NCBI GenBank assembly: GCA_017556585.1
Contig: JAFYMP010000086.1
Coordinates: forward strand, 1-64,000
From: Bacteroidaceae bacterium
Lineage (GTDB): Bacteria > Bacteroidota > Bacteroidia > Bacteroidales > Bacteroidaceae
Direction of reading: 5' to 3'
Length of the DNA: 64,000 nt
Shown: piece after piece, positions 13,534 through 19,858 of the stretch
How positions within the stretch are numbered: the stretch's first letter is position 1
How the letters are laid out: each line of letters starts with the position of its first letter
Position numbers and translations under genes: made by a program
The notes under the pieces: generated by a model
Databases searched by the model: none
What the model was told of the DNA's origin: nothing
The model's input: only the letters and a program-made list of their open reading frames with translations

Positions 13534-14826
13534 TTACAATCCGAATTCCTCTTTTATAGTCTGAACATAGTCTAATTTTTCCCAAGTGAACAGTTCAACG
13601 TCCATCTCTACAGATGGCTGATACTTGCTTACAAACTTTTTGTGTACTATGCGACAGTTCTGTCCCATGTGTCCGTATGCAGCTGTTTCACTATATATAG
13701 GATTACGTAGTTTAAGACGGTCTTCAATAGCTTTTGGTCTTAAATCGAATAGCTTATCTATCTTTTTGGCTATTTCTCCATCGCTCATATTAACATGTGA
13801 ACGTCCGTAGGTATTTACAAATATGTTGATAGGTTTGGCTACGCCTATGGCGTATGAAATCTGAACCAACATTTCGTCTGCTACACCTGCAGCAACCATG
13901 TTCTTGGCTATATGACGGGCAGCGTATGCTGCGCTTCTATCTACCTTAGATGGGTCTTTACCGCTAAATGCACCACCTCCGTGAGCACCTTTACCACCGT
14001 ATGTATCTACAATAATCTTTCTGCCGGTTAAACCAGTATCGCCGTGTGGGCCGCCTATCACAAATTTACCTGTAGGATTAACGTGGTAGGTAATATCTGC
14101 ATTAAACAGCTTTGCTATCTCTGCATTTCCTATCTCTTCTATAACGCGTGGCATAAGAATCTCTACCACATCTTTACGAATTATGGCAAGCATCTCTTCG
14201 TCTGCTTCAAGTGCAGCCTCTTTGCTGTCGTTGGCCGGCTGTATAAAGTCGTCGTGCTGAGTACTTACTACAATGGTGTCTATTCTTTCAGGTGTGCCGT
14301 TATCGTTATATTCAATAGTTACCTGACTCTTTGAATCGGGACGCAGATAGGTCATATATGTTCCTTCTCGACGTATCTCTGCCAATACTCTTAATATGGT
14401 ATGCGCCAAATGGAGTGGCAGTGGCATATAGTTGTCGGTTTCGTTGGTTGCGTAACCGAACATCATGCCCTGGTCGCCTGCACCCTGATCCATAGCGTTT
14501 TCGCGTTCTACACCGCGGTTAATGTCTGCGCTCTGTTCGTGTATTGCTGATAGCACTCCACATGAATTGCCATCAAACATATATTCGCCTTTGGTATATC
14601 CTATTCGGTTTATAACATTTCTGGCTGTCTCCTGTAGATCTACGTACGCCTTTGATTTTATTTCACCGGCTATTACTACCTGTCCTGTGGTTACCAATGT
14701 TTCACAAGCTACCTTTGAATCTTTATCAAAGGCCAAAATTCTATCAAGTATAGCGTCTGAAATCTGATCCGCTACCTTGTCCGGGTGTCCTTCCGACACC
14801 GATTCTGATGTAAATAGATATGACAT
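13534..14826 (-). CDS. metK: S-adenosylmethionine synthetase
   Basis: The protein has 430 residues and makes SAM from methionine and ATP in the cytosol. Signature segments are visible: [16 protein letters not shown] near the N-terminus, [12 protein letters not shown], and [19 protein letters not shown]. The length is slightly above the 380-400 of many bacterial enzymes, as is usual for Bacteroidota. The ATG at 14826 lies immediately after a terminator hairpin in its leader, and the leader carries a SAM-II-like aptamer, so expression is probably reduced when SAM is plentiful. ahcY, in the same SAM cycle, lies elsewhere in this window at 49008. Confidence 0.98.
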
Positions 14827-14830
14827 ATAT

Positions 14831-14874
14831 TAAAAAATAATAACCTCACTGTTTAATAATTTAAAACAATGAGG
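14831..14874 (-). terminator. Intrinsic terminator in the metK leader (riboswitch expression platform)
   Basis: On the minus strand CCTCATTGTTT (14874-14864) pairs with AAACAGTGAGG (14854-14844), 11 bp with one G-U pair, followed by TTATTATTTTTTA. The hairpin ends 4 bp before the metK ATG. Its upstream arm is also complementary (11 of 12) to the 5' strand of the aptamer at 14981-14970, so the terminator and an antiterminator would be mutually exclusive. Confidence 0.75.
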
Positions 14875-14910
14875 ATTCATTACAACAACTAAAATTAAAA
14901 CAGAAAATTT

Positions 14911-14981
14911 GACTTTTAGCATTTTTTTCTGTGGTTGCAAGCTGTCGGAACCTGAGTTCACAAATCTTTCCACATTGTTTT
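14911..14981 (-). ncRNA. SAM-II-like riboswitch (long-loop variant) upstream of metK
   Basis: In RNA order (minus strand): P1 5' arm TGTGG (14974-14970), GATTTG, an extra small hairpin GAAC-TCAG-GTTC (14959-14948), CTTGCA, P1 3' arm CCACA (14934-14930), an A-rich linker, and TGCTAAAAGTC (14921-14911). P1 with AUUUG and CUUGCA in its loop, followed by GCUAAAA as the pseudoknot strand, is the SAM-II (metA motif) arrangement as I remember it. The inserted hairpin fits the long-loop variant described in Bacteroidota. Position directly upstream of metK supports it. Assignment is by eye, without a covariance search. Confidence 0.75.
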
Positions 14982-14986
14982 GTGCT

Positions 14987-15018
14987 GCGAAGGTACACTC
15001 TTTTCCTGATTTGACAAA
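14987..15018 (-). promoter_or_regulatory. Promoter of the metK leader
   Basis: On the minus strand the -33 TTTG is at 15018-15015 and the -7 TACCTTCGC at 14995-14987, with a 19-bp spacer. Transcription would start a few bases before the aptamer's antiterminator strand (14981). Confidence 0.75.
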
Positions 15019-15034
15019 ATATTGTGTGTACAAG

Positions 15035-16063
15035 CTATATTTCAAATGAACATTTTTCCGGTAAAATGCTCTCCATTGCTCTATTTAATCGGCTCTGTAT
15101 ATGTTTGAATGATGCAAACTGTGTAGAATCATTAAGTATTATCAATCTCTTTTTCTTTTTGGTTATGATATTCTCTATTCTCTCTATATTACTATCGCTT
15201 ATTTCAAAGCTTATACTGTCCTTGTAAACATCGTATGGGGTAAAACAACCCTTTGCAATCTGCCAATCTCTGAACAGCCATTGGTTTATGTTATCAAAAT
15301 TTCTGAACTTTGATGCACTGGTCTGTTCCAATGTATCGCCACATTTGTCCCATACCTCTTGCAGAGTGGATTTTAAGAATGCGTTAGGAAAATGCGGTTC
15401 GCTAAACTTAATAAACTCTTTGTTCGGTAAAGTTTGCAGAGTGTGCAACATACATCTGGGGTGTGTGGCATACCTTATGTTGAACCATTTGTACCAGTTC
15501 CTTCTTATGCTCTCTTTTTTGTTGAAATGGCGGTTTATACAGTTTACGTTGTTTTTAATAACGTGATTGGCCATTTCAAAACCATCGTCTTCAATTATGG
15601 TGCTTCCTGCTCTGTCGCAAGGCAAACCATTCCTGAAAAAGCGTTCCACAGGCAGATTGTTCAGAATAAAGCAGTCATCGTTAAAATAGACAAATTTGTC
15701 TGCCAGATTATCTATTCTGTGCAGGTTTATCTCTATAGGGTGGCTGCTGAATGTGGGCAGGTGTTCTGCCGGCATGTAGTCGGAATGCGAAACCAGATTC
15801 AATTTTGGTGCATTGGGATTCAGCCATTCCGGTTTCTGACCGCAGGTAACAAAGTGTACTCTGTTTACCCATGGCGCAAACTTTTCCACTCCACGAAACC
15901 AATACTTAAGCAAATCCCAATCTCTATATCTTACGGTACTGTTTTCATCAAGTCCATTTTTGCCGGAATATCTGTTATACTCCTTTTGCCATTCAGGGTC
16001 GTTACCATCTACCCATATCATTACAAAATCTATCTTATTCATAATTCCGTTTTTAGCATCCAC
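15035..16063 (-). CDS. Stealth-family capsular polysaccharide hexose-1-phosphate transferase
   Basis: The protein has 342 residues. Conserved Stealth regions are visible in order: CR1 IDFVMIWVDGNDP, CR2 RYRDWDLLKYWFRGVEKFAPWV with VHFVTCGQ, CR3 FVYFNDDCFILN, and CR4-like HPRCMLHTLQ. Stealth proteins transfer sugar-1-phosphate to build phosphodiester-linked capsule or teichoic-acid-like polymers. The start may be ATG 16063, overlapping the previous gene by 11 bp, or ATG 16042 (MNKIDFVM), which leaves a 10-bp gap. It is the last gene of the 14-gene minus-strand run, and no terminator is evident between its stop and the metK promoter. Confidence 0.9.
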   Translation of the reverse strand: MDAKNGIMNKIDFVMIWVDGNDPEWQKEYNRYSGKNGLDENSTVRYRDWDLLKYWFRGVEKFAPWVNRVHFVTCGQKPEWLNPNAPKLNLVSHSDYMPAEHLPTFSSHPIEINLHRIDNLADKFVYFNDDCFILNNLPVERFFRNGLPCDRAGSTIIEDDGFEMANHVIKNNVNCINRHFNKKESIRRNWYKWFNIRYATHPRCMLHTLQTLPNKEFIKFSEPHFPNAFLKSTLQEVWDKCGDTLEQTSASKFRNFDNINQWLFRDWQIAKGCFTPYDVYKDSISFEISDSNIERIENIITKKKKRLIILNDSTQFASFKHIQSRLNRAMESILPEKCSFEI

Positions 16064-17186
16064 ACTCTTTTAAAAACTCTTTTGAAATCTCTCTCTTCCT
16101 GTTCAGAATTTCATCTACCTTATCCCAGCATATCTTCTTGTTCAGAATTTCGCTGTACGATGTCTGTAATACTCTGTTAGAAAGTCCTAATACATCTAAT
16201 AGGGATGTTACTCTGTCGTTTCCTTTTGAAAATGCCGATTTCAACGGTAAATATACAAACTCTTTGTGCAGTATGATAGATAGCATTACACCGTGGAATG
16301 ATGTTGTAACAACCGTTTCTGCACTATTTATTTCTCTTATCCACTCCTCTATGGTGGGGTAGATATATTTAATATCGTTGCCTAAACATTCGCTAAACGG
16401 GAAGTATCCGCTGGAAAGTGTTGCGGTAAGTTGCATACCTTTTGCGCGGGCAATTTGTTTTATTTCATCTATCTTAATTTCGCTACCGTTCTCTATGTTT
16501 ACGGCATATATAAAGATACCTTTTTCTGTTTTTTGTTTATCGCATAGTGAAAGATAATCTTCTTTCTCCAACAGGAAAACAGGGTCTAAAACCCAAGTAG
16601 TTACAATGTTGTTCTTCTCAAAGAGTTGTAGTTTGGAATGCTCTCTAATAGAGATATAGTCTATCTCTTTAGTTAATGTTTTAAGAACATCGGGATGTGT
16701 GTTAAAGAAATCGGAACTGCCTATGCTTGCGGCGTATGCAACACGTTTTACATTTTTGTCTCCAAACTTTAAGAAGTAGGGCTGTTCTTTTGCCATAGTG
16801 GGAATTCTGCCCCAAACCTGATCGCTGCCGGTAATATACATATCTGCCACAGGTGGATTACCCATCAATTCATTGTAGCTGAAATATCGCTGTGAAGAAT
16901 ATTCCATTCTCTGTTTGAATAGATGGAACTGGCGCAGACAGTTTTTTCTGTAGGCATTTCTCTGTTTTTTGTAATCTTTGTTATGCAGAGTCCATTTGAT
17001 TATACGTTTTATAAATGGTTTCAGACCTCTCTCTTGAAAGATAGTAGGATAGGTTTTGCGCTCCTCATATCTTACTATGTATGCGCTGTGTCCTAATTTC
17101 TTCAGATAAGATTGCAGAGCATATCCTTGCAGTATTTGACCGTAATTATCGTTACTATTCCAAAATGTTAGTATAGCTATTTTCAT
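16053..17186 (-). CDS. Polysaccharide pyruvyl transferase family protein
   Basis: A 377-residue protein with the family's N-terminal MKIAILTFWNSNDNYGQILQGYALQSYLKKLG and central TGSDQVW, plus the TTSFHGVMLSI segment. Members add ketal-linked pyruvate from PEP to sugars of surface polysaccharides, or act as related transferases. It follows the F420-hydrogenase-beta-like gene by 1 bp and overlaps the Stealth gene, a combination often seen in Bacteroidota exopolysaccharide loci. The actual modification is inferred from family only. Confidence 0.88.
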   Translation of the reverse strand: MKIAILTFWNSNDNYGQILQGYALQSYLKKLGHSAYIVRYEERKTYPTIFQERGLKPFIKRIIKWTLHNKDYKKQRNAYRKNCLRQFHLFKQRMEYSSQRYFSYNELMGNPPVADMYITGSDQVWGRIPTMAKEQPYFLKFGDKNVKRVAYAASIGSSDFFNTHPDVLKTLTKEIDYISIREHSKLQLFEKNNIVTTWVLDPVFLLEKEDYLSLCDKQKTEKGIFIYAVNIENGSEIKIDEIKQIARAKGMQLTATLSSGYFPFSECLGNDIKYIYPTIEEWIREINSAETVVTTSFHGVMLSIILHKEFVYLPLKSAFSKGNDRVTSLLDVLGLSNRVLQTSYSEILNKKICWDKVDEILNRKREISKEFLKECGC

Positions 17187-17187
17187 A

Positions 17188-18330
17188 TCATCTCTGTTTT
17201 AACCTGTCCAACATCTTGTTGCAAAAACGGCGCAAACTGGGCTTTTTCTTATGCTCAAGGCTTTTGGCAATGGCAGCCACACCTGTTTTCTTATATTGTT
17301 TCCAGAAATATGCGCTGTCTATAGTTCTCCTGGGATGGTTCAATATGCAAGCATTTCTATTGTCTGTAGCCTTTTCTATGCTGCTTTCCTGAATCTGAAT
17401 ATTCAATTCTTCTAACAGTTTCTTGCCCTTTTCGCTGTTGACTATAACCAAACTTACCCCATCTGCATCGGCAAATTCAGGATGCTGCTTTTCTATTCCC
17501 CAATAGTCTCCTAAGGTTATATCGCTATGGTAAAATCCATATCTGGCAGGGCATCTGTAGCAAGAAGGGCGTAAGTAGAGATTATCCATAAATCCTTTGT
17601 AATAGAGATTCTCTCTGAATTTGTCCTTAACAATAGTATTACCCTTATTATCGGTGATTATGAAATCGGCATCTGCCCATCCACGCTCTTTTTTTCTGAA
17701 ATTTATGTACCGTATATCCTGTACATTCTCTTTAACGGAATGAAGATACTCTTTCCATATTTGCGGACTTGGTACGCCGTGACATACAATATCTGTAATA
17801 AACAGATTACTGTACTCTTTCTTTAAATACAGCTTTAATCCTGCAGCCTGGCAAGGTGTTCCTGAAAACAACACAGGAATATTCTGTTCAAGTAGCTGTT
17901 TTATCTCTTTGAAGCAATCTGCAATGTTACTCTGAACATATTTGCTTCCTCTTAAGCTGGATAGGTCCTGAATATTGTTAACCCCTTTGTGAACCACCTC
18001 CCAATTATTATTGAATGTGGCTCCAAACACAGTTCCTCCATCCTCTATAATCTTTTCTGCTATTGCACTGAATAGGCCACCGGATGTGCTATCCTTTCTT
18101 GTCTGGTTATTGGGATTCTTTGCTGCCAGCACCTGTAGAGAGTGGTTCTCTTTCCTGTTTATTATGGGGCAGACCTTTTCACACAGACCACATTCGGTGC
18201 AGATAGAAACATCTGTTACAGGGTACAGAAATCCTTCGCAGTCTGCTTTCATCGTAATGCAACGGTGAGGACAGGCATTGAAACAGGCACTGCATCCGCA
18301 ACAGTTCTCTTTATTTTCTATCTTTATCAT
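17188..18330 (-). CDS. Coenzyme F420 hydrogenase/dehydrogenase beta-subunit-like protein with two 4Fe-4S motifs
   Basis: The protein has 380 residues. The N-terminus carries a ferredoxin-like double cluster: CCGCSACFNACP and CTECGLCEKVCP. The C-terminal region matches the FrhB/FdhB domain (GTPCQAAGLKLYL, DIVCHGVPSPQIWKEYL, TLGDYWG). Despite the name, Bacteroidota homologues sit in polysaccharide gene clusters next to pyruvyl transferases. A redox or sugar-modifying role is likely but unproven, and the organism shows no other sign of F420 use here. Its start overlaps the flippase gene by 20 bp. Confidence 0.88.
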   Translation of the reverse strand: MIKIENKENCCGCSACFNACPHRCITMKADCEGFLYPVTDVSICTECGLCEKVCPIINRKENHSLQVLAAKNPNNQTRKDSTSGGLFSAIAEKIIEDGGTVFGATFNNNWEVVHKGVNNIQDLSSLRGSKYVQSNIADCFKEIKQLLEQNIPVLFSGTPCQAAGLKLYLKKEYSNLFITDIVCHGVPSPQIWKEYLHSVKENVQDIRYINFRKKERGWADADFIITDNKGNTIVKDKFRENLYYKGFMDNLYLRPSCYRCPARYGFYHSDITLGDYWGIEKQHPEFADADGVSLVIVNSEKGKKLLEELNIQIQESSIEKATDNRNACILNHPRRTIDSAYFWKQYKKTGVAAIAKSLEHKKKPSLRRFCNKMLDRLKQR

Positions 18331-19858
18331 TTTTATGTATAAGTCTGTTTATAAGGTTTATGATGCTCTGCCTTTCCGATGTGGTCATTCCTAAACACCA
18401 TACAGAAATGGCAGTAGAAACTACACATACAGTTCCAACAATCAGAAATCTTTGCAATCCCATCTCTATGGAAAATGCCAGATAGGTAGGTACTATTGCC
18501 GCTGCCACAGAGACTCCTACTACAGGCAGTATCACTTTTTTTAAATAAAGTCCGATGGAAAGGCTCAAAATGCTTTTTGCAAAGTATAGTCGTCCTATGT
18601 GGGCAAGTACAGATATGCAGATAGATGCGTAGAAAACATATTCTACCGGCAGTGATGTAAATCTTTTTATGCAGATGGCTGCAGGTACTATAAGCAATAG
18701 TGTACCCCCTACAAAAATCTGATACCATTTAACCTTTCCCGTAGCTTGTACTCCGGTGGAAATAGGGTAGGTGAACAGATCTAATAGTGAATTAATCAAC
18801 ATCAGTCTTGTAAATATCACAGTCTTTTCCGGTAGATTGTCTTTTAGCCAGAACTCTAAAACGTACGGTGTTTCCAACAGTAGTGGCAGGGTAATTAAGA
18901 AAGCCAAATAGAAAGAGAATTTACTGCTTTGATTGATAAGTTTCAGCATCTCCTTATGTTCGCCTCCGGAATAAGATTTAATTATCTGAGGTTTGGTTGC
19001 TGTATAGAAACTATCTATAAGTTGTGTAAGTGCGCTATATACTTTGTAGGCATAAGATCTGGCAGAATTTAACAACACTCCACCCGGGTATCCGTTTATT
19101 ATCATATTCAGACCCTGGCTTCTGCACACACTTGCAAATGAACCAAACATATTCCAACCCGTATATCCCACTATCTCTTTTGCCAGATTTTTATTCCAAT
19201 AAAAACTGTATCGGCACTCATTGTAATGCTTTCTGCAATAGGCATAATATAATAATGTGGTTATTACAGGCGATAAAATCATAAGCCAGGCATAGAATAT
19301 CAATCTATCTGCCGATATGTGTGAAATAGCTATAGCAACCATCAGGTTAAGCATCACCTCTAAAATACTCATATAGGCAAACAGTTTCATATTTTCGTGA
19401 GCAATGGTAACTGCTCTCAAAGGAGTTGCCAAAAGAGTGAATGCAAATGATAATACTGCGCAATGGAAAACCCATTTGGCAGCCTCCATTCTGCCATCCG
19501 GTATATTTGCCACCTTTATTAACCATAGGTAACCGAAGATTTCTATAACCACAACCAGTACCACCACTATAATTATAAATAGGGTGGTAATCAGGCTGTA
19601 GATATTCTTCATTCTTTCTTCGTTTCCGCGTCCCAATTCAAAGGCAAAGTAGCGCTGGCTGGCTCCTGCCATGGAATTACTGAGGAACGAAAACATAGCC
19701 ACTGTACTACCAATAAGCCCATATATGCCAATGTCAGAGTCGCCTAATGCGTCTCTAATGACATTAACAGTATAGAATCCTACCAGCATAACGAGCAACA
19801 TTCGCCCGTAAAGTAGGATGGTGTTTACTGCTATGCGCTTTTGGTTTACTTGTGACAT
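18311..19858 (-). CDS. Wzx-like polysaccharide flippase (MOP superfamily)
   Basis: A 515-residue integral membrane protein with about 12-14 hydrophobic segments, no signal peptide, and the MOP/MATE-like N-terminus (NTILLYGRMLLVMLVGFYTVNVI then ALGDSDIGIYGLI). This class moves undecaprenyl-linked oligosaccharides across the inner membrane. It lies between the DPP III-like peptidase gene (10 bp upstream) and the F420-hydrogenase-like gene (20-bp overlap). Together with uppP earlier in the same run it supports a link to lipid-carrier-dependent glycan export. Confidence 0.88.
   Translation of the reverse strand: MSQVNQKRIAVNTILLYGRMLLVMLVGFYTVNVIRDALGDSDIGIYGLIGSTVAMFSFLSNSMAGASQRYFAFELGRGNEERMKNIYSLITTLFIIIVVVLVVVIEIFGYLWLIKVANIPDGRMEAAKWVFHCAVLSFAFTLLATPLRAVTIAHENMKLFAYMSILEVMLNLMVAIAISHISADRLIFYAWLMILSPVITTLLYYAYCRKHYNECRYSFYWNKNLAKEIVGYTGWNMFGSFASVCRSQGLNMIINGYPGGVLLNSARSYAYKVYSALTQLIDSFYTATKPQIIKSYSGGEHKEMLKLINQSSKFSFYLAFLITLPLLLETPYVLEFWLKDNLPEKTVIFTRLMLINSLLDLFTYPISTGVQATGKVKWYQIFVGGTLLLIVPAAICIKRFTSLPVEYVFYASICISVLAHIGRLYFAKSILSLSIGLYLKKVILPVVGVSVAAAIVPTYLAFSIEMGLQRFLIVGTVCVVSTAISVWCLGMTTSERQSIINLINRLIHKNDKDRK

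Follow-up and report, generated by a model that had tools for sequence, protein, structure and literature searches.

A metK leader with a SAM-II long-loop aptamer, a terminator-like hairpin and a predicted antiterminator strand at the RNA 5' end in a Bacteroidaceae genus

The window analyzed here is a stretch of 64,000 nucleotides from a Bacteroidaceae bacterium that carries metK, the gene for S-adenosylmethionine (SAM) synthetase (430 aa; 13534..14826, minus strand; start ATG at 14826-14824). The leader of this gene contains an RNA of the SAM-II long-loop family (RF01726) and, in our judgment, this RNA probably turns transcription OFF at high SAM by means of a predicted terminator located before the ATG. 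We propose that transcription starts at or beside a segment termed A (AAAACAATGTGG; 14970..14981, minus strand), which comprises the 5' tail of the RNA plus the 5' strand of aptamer helix P1 and is the predicted antiterminator strand. Without SAM, A would pair with segment B (CCTCATTGTTTT; 14863..14874, minus strand), the 5' arm of the terminator, once B emerges; this pairing would consume the P1 5' strand and, with the antiterminator formed, the polymerase would continue into metK. With SAM, the bound ligand would lock the pseudoknot and P1 while B is still to be transcribed; A being occupied, B would pair with the terminator 3' arm (segment C; 14844..14854, minus strand), so that transcription would end in the T tract.

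Parts of the metK leader

Upstream of segment A, the minus strand shows a -7-like promoter box TACCTTCG (14988..14995), which agrees with TAnnTTTG except for one mismatch, and, by reading, a possible -33 element TTTTG (15015..15019) that stands 19 bases further 5'. TAnnTTTG at -7 and TTTG at about -33 constitute a published promoter consensus (PMC7366714). A TAnnTT[TC]G box is found 10-14 bases 5' of P1 in 29/29 same-genus leaders, a position from which the transcription start is predicted at or beside A. Searches for sigma-70 promoters gave matches at chance level. Beyond the promoter, positions 15035-19858 of the minus strand hold a run of genes resembling surface-polysaccharide genes; this run includes a Stealth-family protein (PF11380) and, by reading, ORFs resembling a polysaccharide pyruvyl transferase, an Fe-S protein and a flippase.

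The aptamer (14906..14979, minus strand) stands in the leader of a SAM-synthesis gene and matches RF01726 over the full length of the model (1-60 of 60), with 53.1 bits compared to a gathering score of 44. It is one of two Rfam matches that cmscan returned for the window at curated thresholds, the other being a tRNA. The earlier note on this DNA, made from the sequence alone, had suggested a search with the models of both SAM-II long loops and SAM_alpha (RF00521); the former was recovered and the latter was not. RF00521 gave 7 matches up to E 10 in the whole genome, none of them listed at the metK leader, and the best reached 14.8 bits with a cut-off of 36; with no match over the cut-off in the genome, RF00521 is unsupported as the family of the metK aptamer.

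On the minus strand, P1 is made of TGTGG (14970..14974) and CCACA (14930..14934), and the aptamer elements GATTTG (14966-14961), TTGCA and GCTAAAA are all present, together with an extra hairpin GAAC/GTTC (14948..14959) in the aptamer loop. The outer pairing of the pseudoknot (P2) is predicted, by reading, between GAC (14944..14946) and GTC (14911..14913), both on the minus strand. GAC/GTC and GCA/TGC, which by reading are able to pair, are invariant in the genus (28 rows) and lie outside the folding model, and other Bacteroidota carry CTG/CAG at a like place of the outer pseudoknot (e.g. L012). The extra hairpin follows the genus, the loop length being 20-35 in 29/29 same-genus leaders. It is 5-6 in 89/89 leaders from other genera of the family and in 90/90 from other families of the order, and 5-7 in 47 of 50 named Bacteroidota loci, the long loops of L055, L061 and L081 making up the remainder.

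Segments B and C form the predicted terminator hairpin (14874-14844, minus strand), which ends 17 bases before the ATG and is followed by the T-rich tract of a predicted intrinsic terminator (14831..14843, minus strand), ending 4 bases before the ATG. A simple terminator scan listed no terminator, probably because the scan allows loops of 3-8 and the folded loop is 9. The promoter, the aptamer elements, the loop hairpin, the terminator and its distance from the ATG were thus all found on the minus strand where the earlier note had placed them, and so was the complementarity that it had described between 14981-14970 and 14874-14863 (A and B), at 11 of 12 positions.

Terminator and antiterminator strands among relatives

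RF01726 scored over its cut-off in 29 of 37 same-genus genomes, the window's genome being counted, and among the 8 others, 6 have a metK that lacks an upstream aptamer motif and 2 yielded no metK. The metK genes without aptamer (L200-L205, from genomes G030, G016, G015, G010, G021 and G023) provide a natural riboswitch-less comparison, and in L200 a -7-like box stands almost directly 5' of the metK ATG. At E <= 0.001, RF01726 was found in 246/301 genomes of the family, 197/295 of the order and 28/198 of the class. The same-genus set consists of 28 of 29 leaders; L098, dropped because it has no start, keeps the aptamer followed by metK coding sequence without a start, reflecting a deletion or an assembly error. 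The family set (L110-L199) comprises 90 leaders, of which 89 were parsed (not L146) and 87 have a start (not L141 and L180), and the order set (L207-L296) comprises 90 parsed leaders, 84 with a start (not L233, L239, L241, L279, L285 and L286). Sampling was non-random in both sets: L110-L139 and L207-L236 are the matches with the highest scores, and L140-L199 and L237-L296 were picked among the matches listed, spread over genera or families. Of the 80 loci in the named set, the 50 that have a start and an aptamer that could be parsed were used, and L298-L322 stand outside all counts.

A terminator was scored where a T-rich tract follows a hairpin that has 6 pairs or more and an energy no weaker than -6 kcal/mol. 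Such a hairpin ends no more than 30 nt upstream of the ATG in 28/28 usable same-genus leaders, in 0/87 leaders from other genera of the family, in 3/84 from other families of the order (a convincing case in L290, weak ones in L242 and L254) and in 1/50 named Bacteroidota (L034). Terminator-like hairpins occur farther upstream of the ATG in 12/87, 2/84 and 5/50 leaders of the family, order and named sets, respectively. Six leaders of another lineage (L134, L173, L174, L177, L178 and L029) possess strong hairpins with a U tract at 34-85 nt from the start of metK, and the duplexes of their 5' segments with the leader are reached by 7 to 152 of 200 shuffles; in L266, where the hairpin is 69 nt from the ATG, the corresponding duplex is reached by 89/200 shuffles. 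In the 28 same-genus leaders, the B:C helix is 86.9% paired and three of its pairs are changed on both sides; slid registers give at most two such pairs, and 11/500 shuffles are as high.

The complementarity of A and B is likewise retained, with 85.1% of cells paired (11 pairs, alignment of 28 leaders), compared to 33.8-50.6% when the strands are slid by 1-3, and 0/500 shuffles reach this value. Both strands of A:B have a second possible partner, as GTGG is also part of P1 and B is also part of the terminator. P1 itself is 98.6% paired across the 28 leaders and nearly invariant, hence uninformative for covariation. Covariation in A:B is thin, amounting to two pairs in one clade: pairs 6-148 and 7-147 change from G-C to A-U on both sides only in the window (L001) and in L082, whose leaders are 93% identical to each other and 69% identical on average to the rest, and which form a clade marked by the AAAACAATG tail. 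Registers +1 and +2 give the same count of two, 10/500 shuffles reach it, and the further pair types are not raised (493/500 shuffles as high). In column 147 of B, 26 rows have C and carry G at the partner positions in A and in C, whereas the 2 rows with T carry A at these two positions, so that the three strands changed together; when A of the window's clade is combined with the B of other leaders, the duplex has -5.7 kcal/mol, compared to -9.9 kcal/mol for the cognate strands. The earlier note had proposed looking for covariation in this pairing among relatives, and some was seen both there and in the terminator; lack of a model match and lack of covariation were the sequence-based findings it had named as speaking against its reading, and neither was obtained.

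The terminator arm is the best ungapped downstream partner of A in 25/28 leaders, and in the other three (L083, L096 and L109) another site scores equally well or better. The 8 bases 5' of P1 are conserved in the genus and unconserved in 89 leaders of other genera. In all 28 leaders, the U of GUGG, which is needed by P1, faces C or U in B, and L034 has a similar U-C mismatch; such a mismatch may limit the strength of the antiterminator so that SAM-bound P1 can still outcompete it. Folds also show an inner antiterminator helix, in which TTGCAAC of the aptamer pairs with GTTGCA immediately 5' of B, but it was rejected since in most of the 28 leaders base shuffles were often equally good (1 to 173 of 200).

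For the window, the duplex of A with the leader has an energy of -10.7 kcal/mol, reached by 1/500 dinucleotide shuffles. Across the 28 leaders, this duplex is reached by at most 25/500 shuffles in 21, the weakest case being L104 (68/500); as same-genus leaders are related, these figures are not independent tests. The pair count of the window is matched by 5.6% of permuted tails and by 10/89 real tails of other genera, and this window-only test is indecisive because the tail is A-rich and the terminator arm T-rich. The case therefore rests on the genus relatives, among which 12 of 28 leaders are matched by 0/89 foreign tails and the others by up to 39 (L106). The tail duplex has a mean z of -2.55 over the 28 leaders of the genus, compared to -0.54 (85), -0.09 (29) and -0.1 (50) elsewhere, in a parse with L034 and L005 mis-registered.

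Folding computations, in a model that omits SAM and the pseudoknot, predict that A pairs with B in the nascent RNA and that B:C wins later in most leaders. For an RNA ending just past B, the pairing of four A-tail positions with B averages 0.99-1.0 in 16 leaders and 0.66-0.71 in 11 leaders, for which the ceiling is 0.75 since one of the four is a mismatch, and L090 gives only 0.34 for A:B. P1 in this nascent RNA does not exceed 0.13 in 27/28 leaders, and in L084 it reaches 0.62 alongside the tail pairing. In the full-length RNA, A:B is at most 0.13 in 27/28 leaders and 1.0 in L099. When either state was forced on the transcript up to the ATG without ligand, the terminator state was lower in 26/28 leaders, and the antiterminator state was lower in the window (by 1.4 kcal/mol) and in L099 (by 1.2 kcal/mol). 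Read-through would thus need kinetic control in these 26 leaders. Along direct paths, the change from the antiterminator to the terminator state has to cross 6.3-15.5 kcal/mol, barrier values that are upper bounds by method, and the modelled energies fit such kinetic control.

Downstream elements in sister lineages

Outside the genus, the aptamer is accompanied by other downstream elements. GAGTAG in the aptamer loop is associated with CTACTC downstream in 28/34 leaders (1.26 expected from base shuffles), and CTACTC occurs in 4/187 leaders outside the genus that lack GAGTAG. Similarly, aptamers with GATTGA, from other families, are associated with TCAATC in 13/30 cases (1.62 expected). No exact complement was found for loops with GGCTGC, GGGCTG, GACTGC or GGGCAG in 63 leaders taken together. 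The family set contains 27 CTACTC leaders, all within L110-L145, and a terminator upstream of the ATG was scored in none of them. These counts suggest that some lineages oppose the same position of the aptamer with a complementary element further downstream, and GAGTAG/CTACTC resembles an anti-aptamer pairing that is specific to its lineage and comes without a terminator. In L024, L044, L066 and L076 (named, Flavobacteriia-type), a segment like CGTCAAATCTTC just 5' of metK is complementary to the aptamer's AAGATTTGAC and is possibly another anti-aptamer strand.

Two lineages show the layout of the window with other sequences. In L034 and L290, a different 5' tail together with the P1 strand pairs with a stretch overlapping the 5' arm of their own terminator, at levels reached by 1/200 and 4/200 shuffles, respectively, figures that are uncorrected for the choice of these loci as having a terminator near the ATG. 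The lineages of L034 and L290 may therefore have arrived independently at the terminator layout of the window. More broadly, 18/164 leaders outside the genus have a 5'-segment duplex reached by at most 2/100 shuffles, in the parse with L034 and L005 mis-registered, and only some of these resemble strand competition.

Sequestration of the start codon as a general platform of the sister genera was suggestive at best and is not claimed here: an exact complement of the first six coding bases stands upstream in 6/87 leaders (4.1 expected; same parse with L034 and L005 mis-registered), and CCCAT is found 5' of ATGGG starts in 21/72 (11.3 expected).

Taken from the comparison of these leaders, a scenario to which we give somewhat less than even credence is that one SAM-II aptamer swapped its output device within Bacteroidales. 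The window's genus and at least two further lineages (those of L034 and L290) would have independently built an antiterminator from the 5' end and P1 to serve a new terminator at the start codon, and many others would pair the loop and a pseudoknot strand with a downstream complement (GAGTAG/CTACTC or GATTGA/TCAATC, depending on the lineage), with no terminator near the start. The level of control would thereby have been exchanged under an unchanged sensor.

Alternative readings, known systems and significance

The aptamer could act mainly on translation, its SAM-bound fold or the hairpin hindering ribosome loading, with termination as a minor event or a second layer. The metX type of SAM-II is described as occluding the ribosome site directly (PMC10907184), translation control is the commonest predicted mechanism outside Firmicutes (Barrick and Breaker 2007, PMC2258182), most leaders from other genera of Bacteroidales have no terminator close to the ATG, and the hairpin of the window ends 17 bases from its start codon. 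This distance exceeds, however, the 10 nt limit given for dual control in PMC2258182, and a purely translational switch would not need the hairpin and T-rich tract that every usable same-genus leader has close to its ATG, which makes a mainly translational action unlikely. We consider it less probable still that aptamer and terminator are both real but uncoupled, the terminator being constitutive or otherwise relieved and the complementarity of A and B a by-product of composition. The A-rich A and T-rich B of the window, the foreign tails that pair equally well with it (10/89), and covariation confined to a single clade, with a count of two pairs that is not clearly higher than in slid registers, would agree with a by-product; such pairing is not expected of a constitutive terminator, however, and the 12 leaders matched by no foreign tail, the 85.1% of paired cells compared to 34-51% in slid registers, and a tail conserved in this genus only argue for coupling. 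That the main product is a short RNA released by termination and acting elsewhere seems hardly credible: Sinorhizobium SAM-II leaders do give small RNAs, raised and stabilized at high SAM (PMC9373788), but in the 28 leaders, apart from the aptamer, the start and segments A, B and C, nothing stands out as strongly conserved. Termination governed by competition for the P1 strand is the reading we prefer, and the wiring of P1 strand and terminator put forward in the earlier note is supported at the level of sequence comparison.

Control of transcription by SAM-II as such is not new, and the premise of the earlier note that SAM-II is usually translational proved one-sided, as putative terminators have been reported for this class (PMC1273637, PMC5756330) and the translational picture belongs to the metX type (PMC10907184). 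Corbino 2005 noted putative terminators in many SAM-II representatives and suggested an OFF switch (PMC1273637). In Gluconobacter, RNA-seq coverage of a leader was 20-fold over that of the gene, a terminator and an antiterminator were predicted and termination was suggested (PMC5756330), and the metZ SAM-II of S. meliloti is predicted to terminate (Scheuer 2022, PMC9373788). These RF00521 terminator leaders (PMC1273637, PMC2258182, PMC9373788, PMC5756330) share with the window the H-type pseudoknot, the terminator before the gene, the predicted OFF logic and a start site near P1; they differ in the genes and phyla concerned and in the family model that the window matches. The metX SAM-II of the crystal structure belongs to the same SAM-II class and, unlike the window, is described without a terminator in the available text of the review PMC10907184.

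Weinberg 2010 listed SAM-II long loops from Bacteroidetes and marine samples and predicted them to be a cis-regulatory switch (PMC2864571). The aptamer of the window belongs to this family, as its score above the curated cut-off indicates; the available text of that paper describes neither a terminator nor an antiterminator, and the extra hairpin in the first loop belongs to the window's genus. As predicted here, P1, antiterminator and terminator of purine riboswitches compete for shared strands (PMC3723493), but aptamer and ligand are others, and in the metK leader it is the very 5' end of the transcript that is the predicted antiterminator strand. A literature search covering part of the openly available papers found no description of a P1-strand antiterminator for SAM-II of Bacteroidota, which does not prove its absence. 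What appears new from these alignments is a Bacteroides-like, genus-wide version in which the RNA 5' end is the predicted antiterminator strand, with RF00521 terminator leaders compared by description only, and the apparent difference in platform between sister lineages.

Taken alone, the window holds a well-supported yet fairly ordinary attenuator. To our knowledge, few riboswitch outputs have been worked out in the phylum Bacteroidota. RF01726 stands before metK in many genomes of one order, and the wiring downstream of it visibly differs in sister groups. The same sensor with differing wiring would thus permit a direct test of how riboswitch output changes in evolution, for which A:B, B:C and GAGTAG/CTACTC are concrete pairings to mutate.
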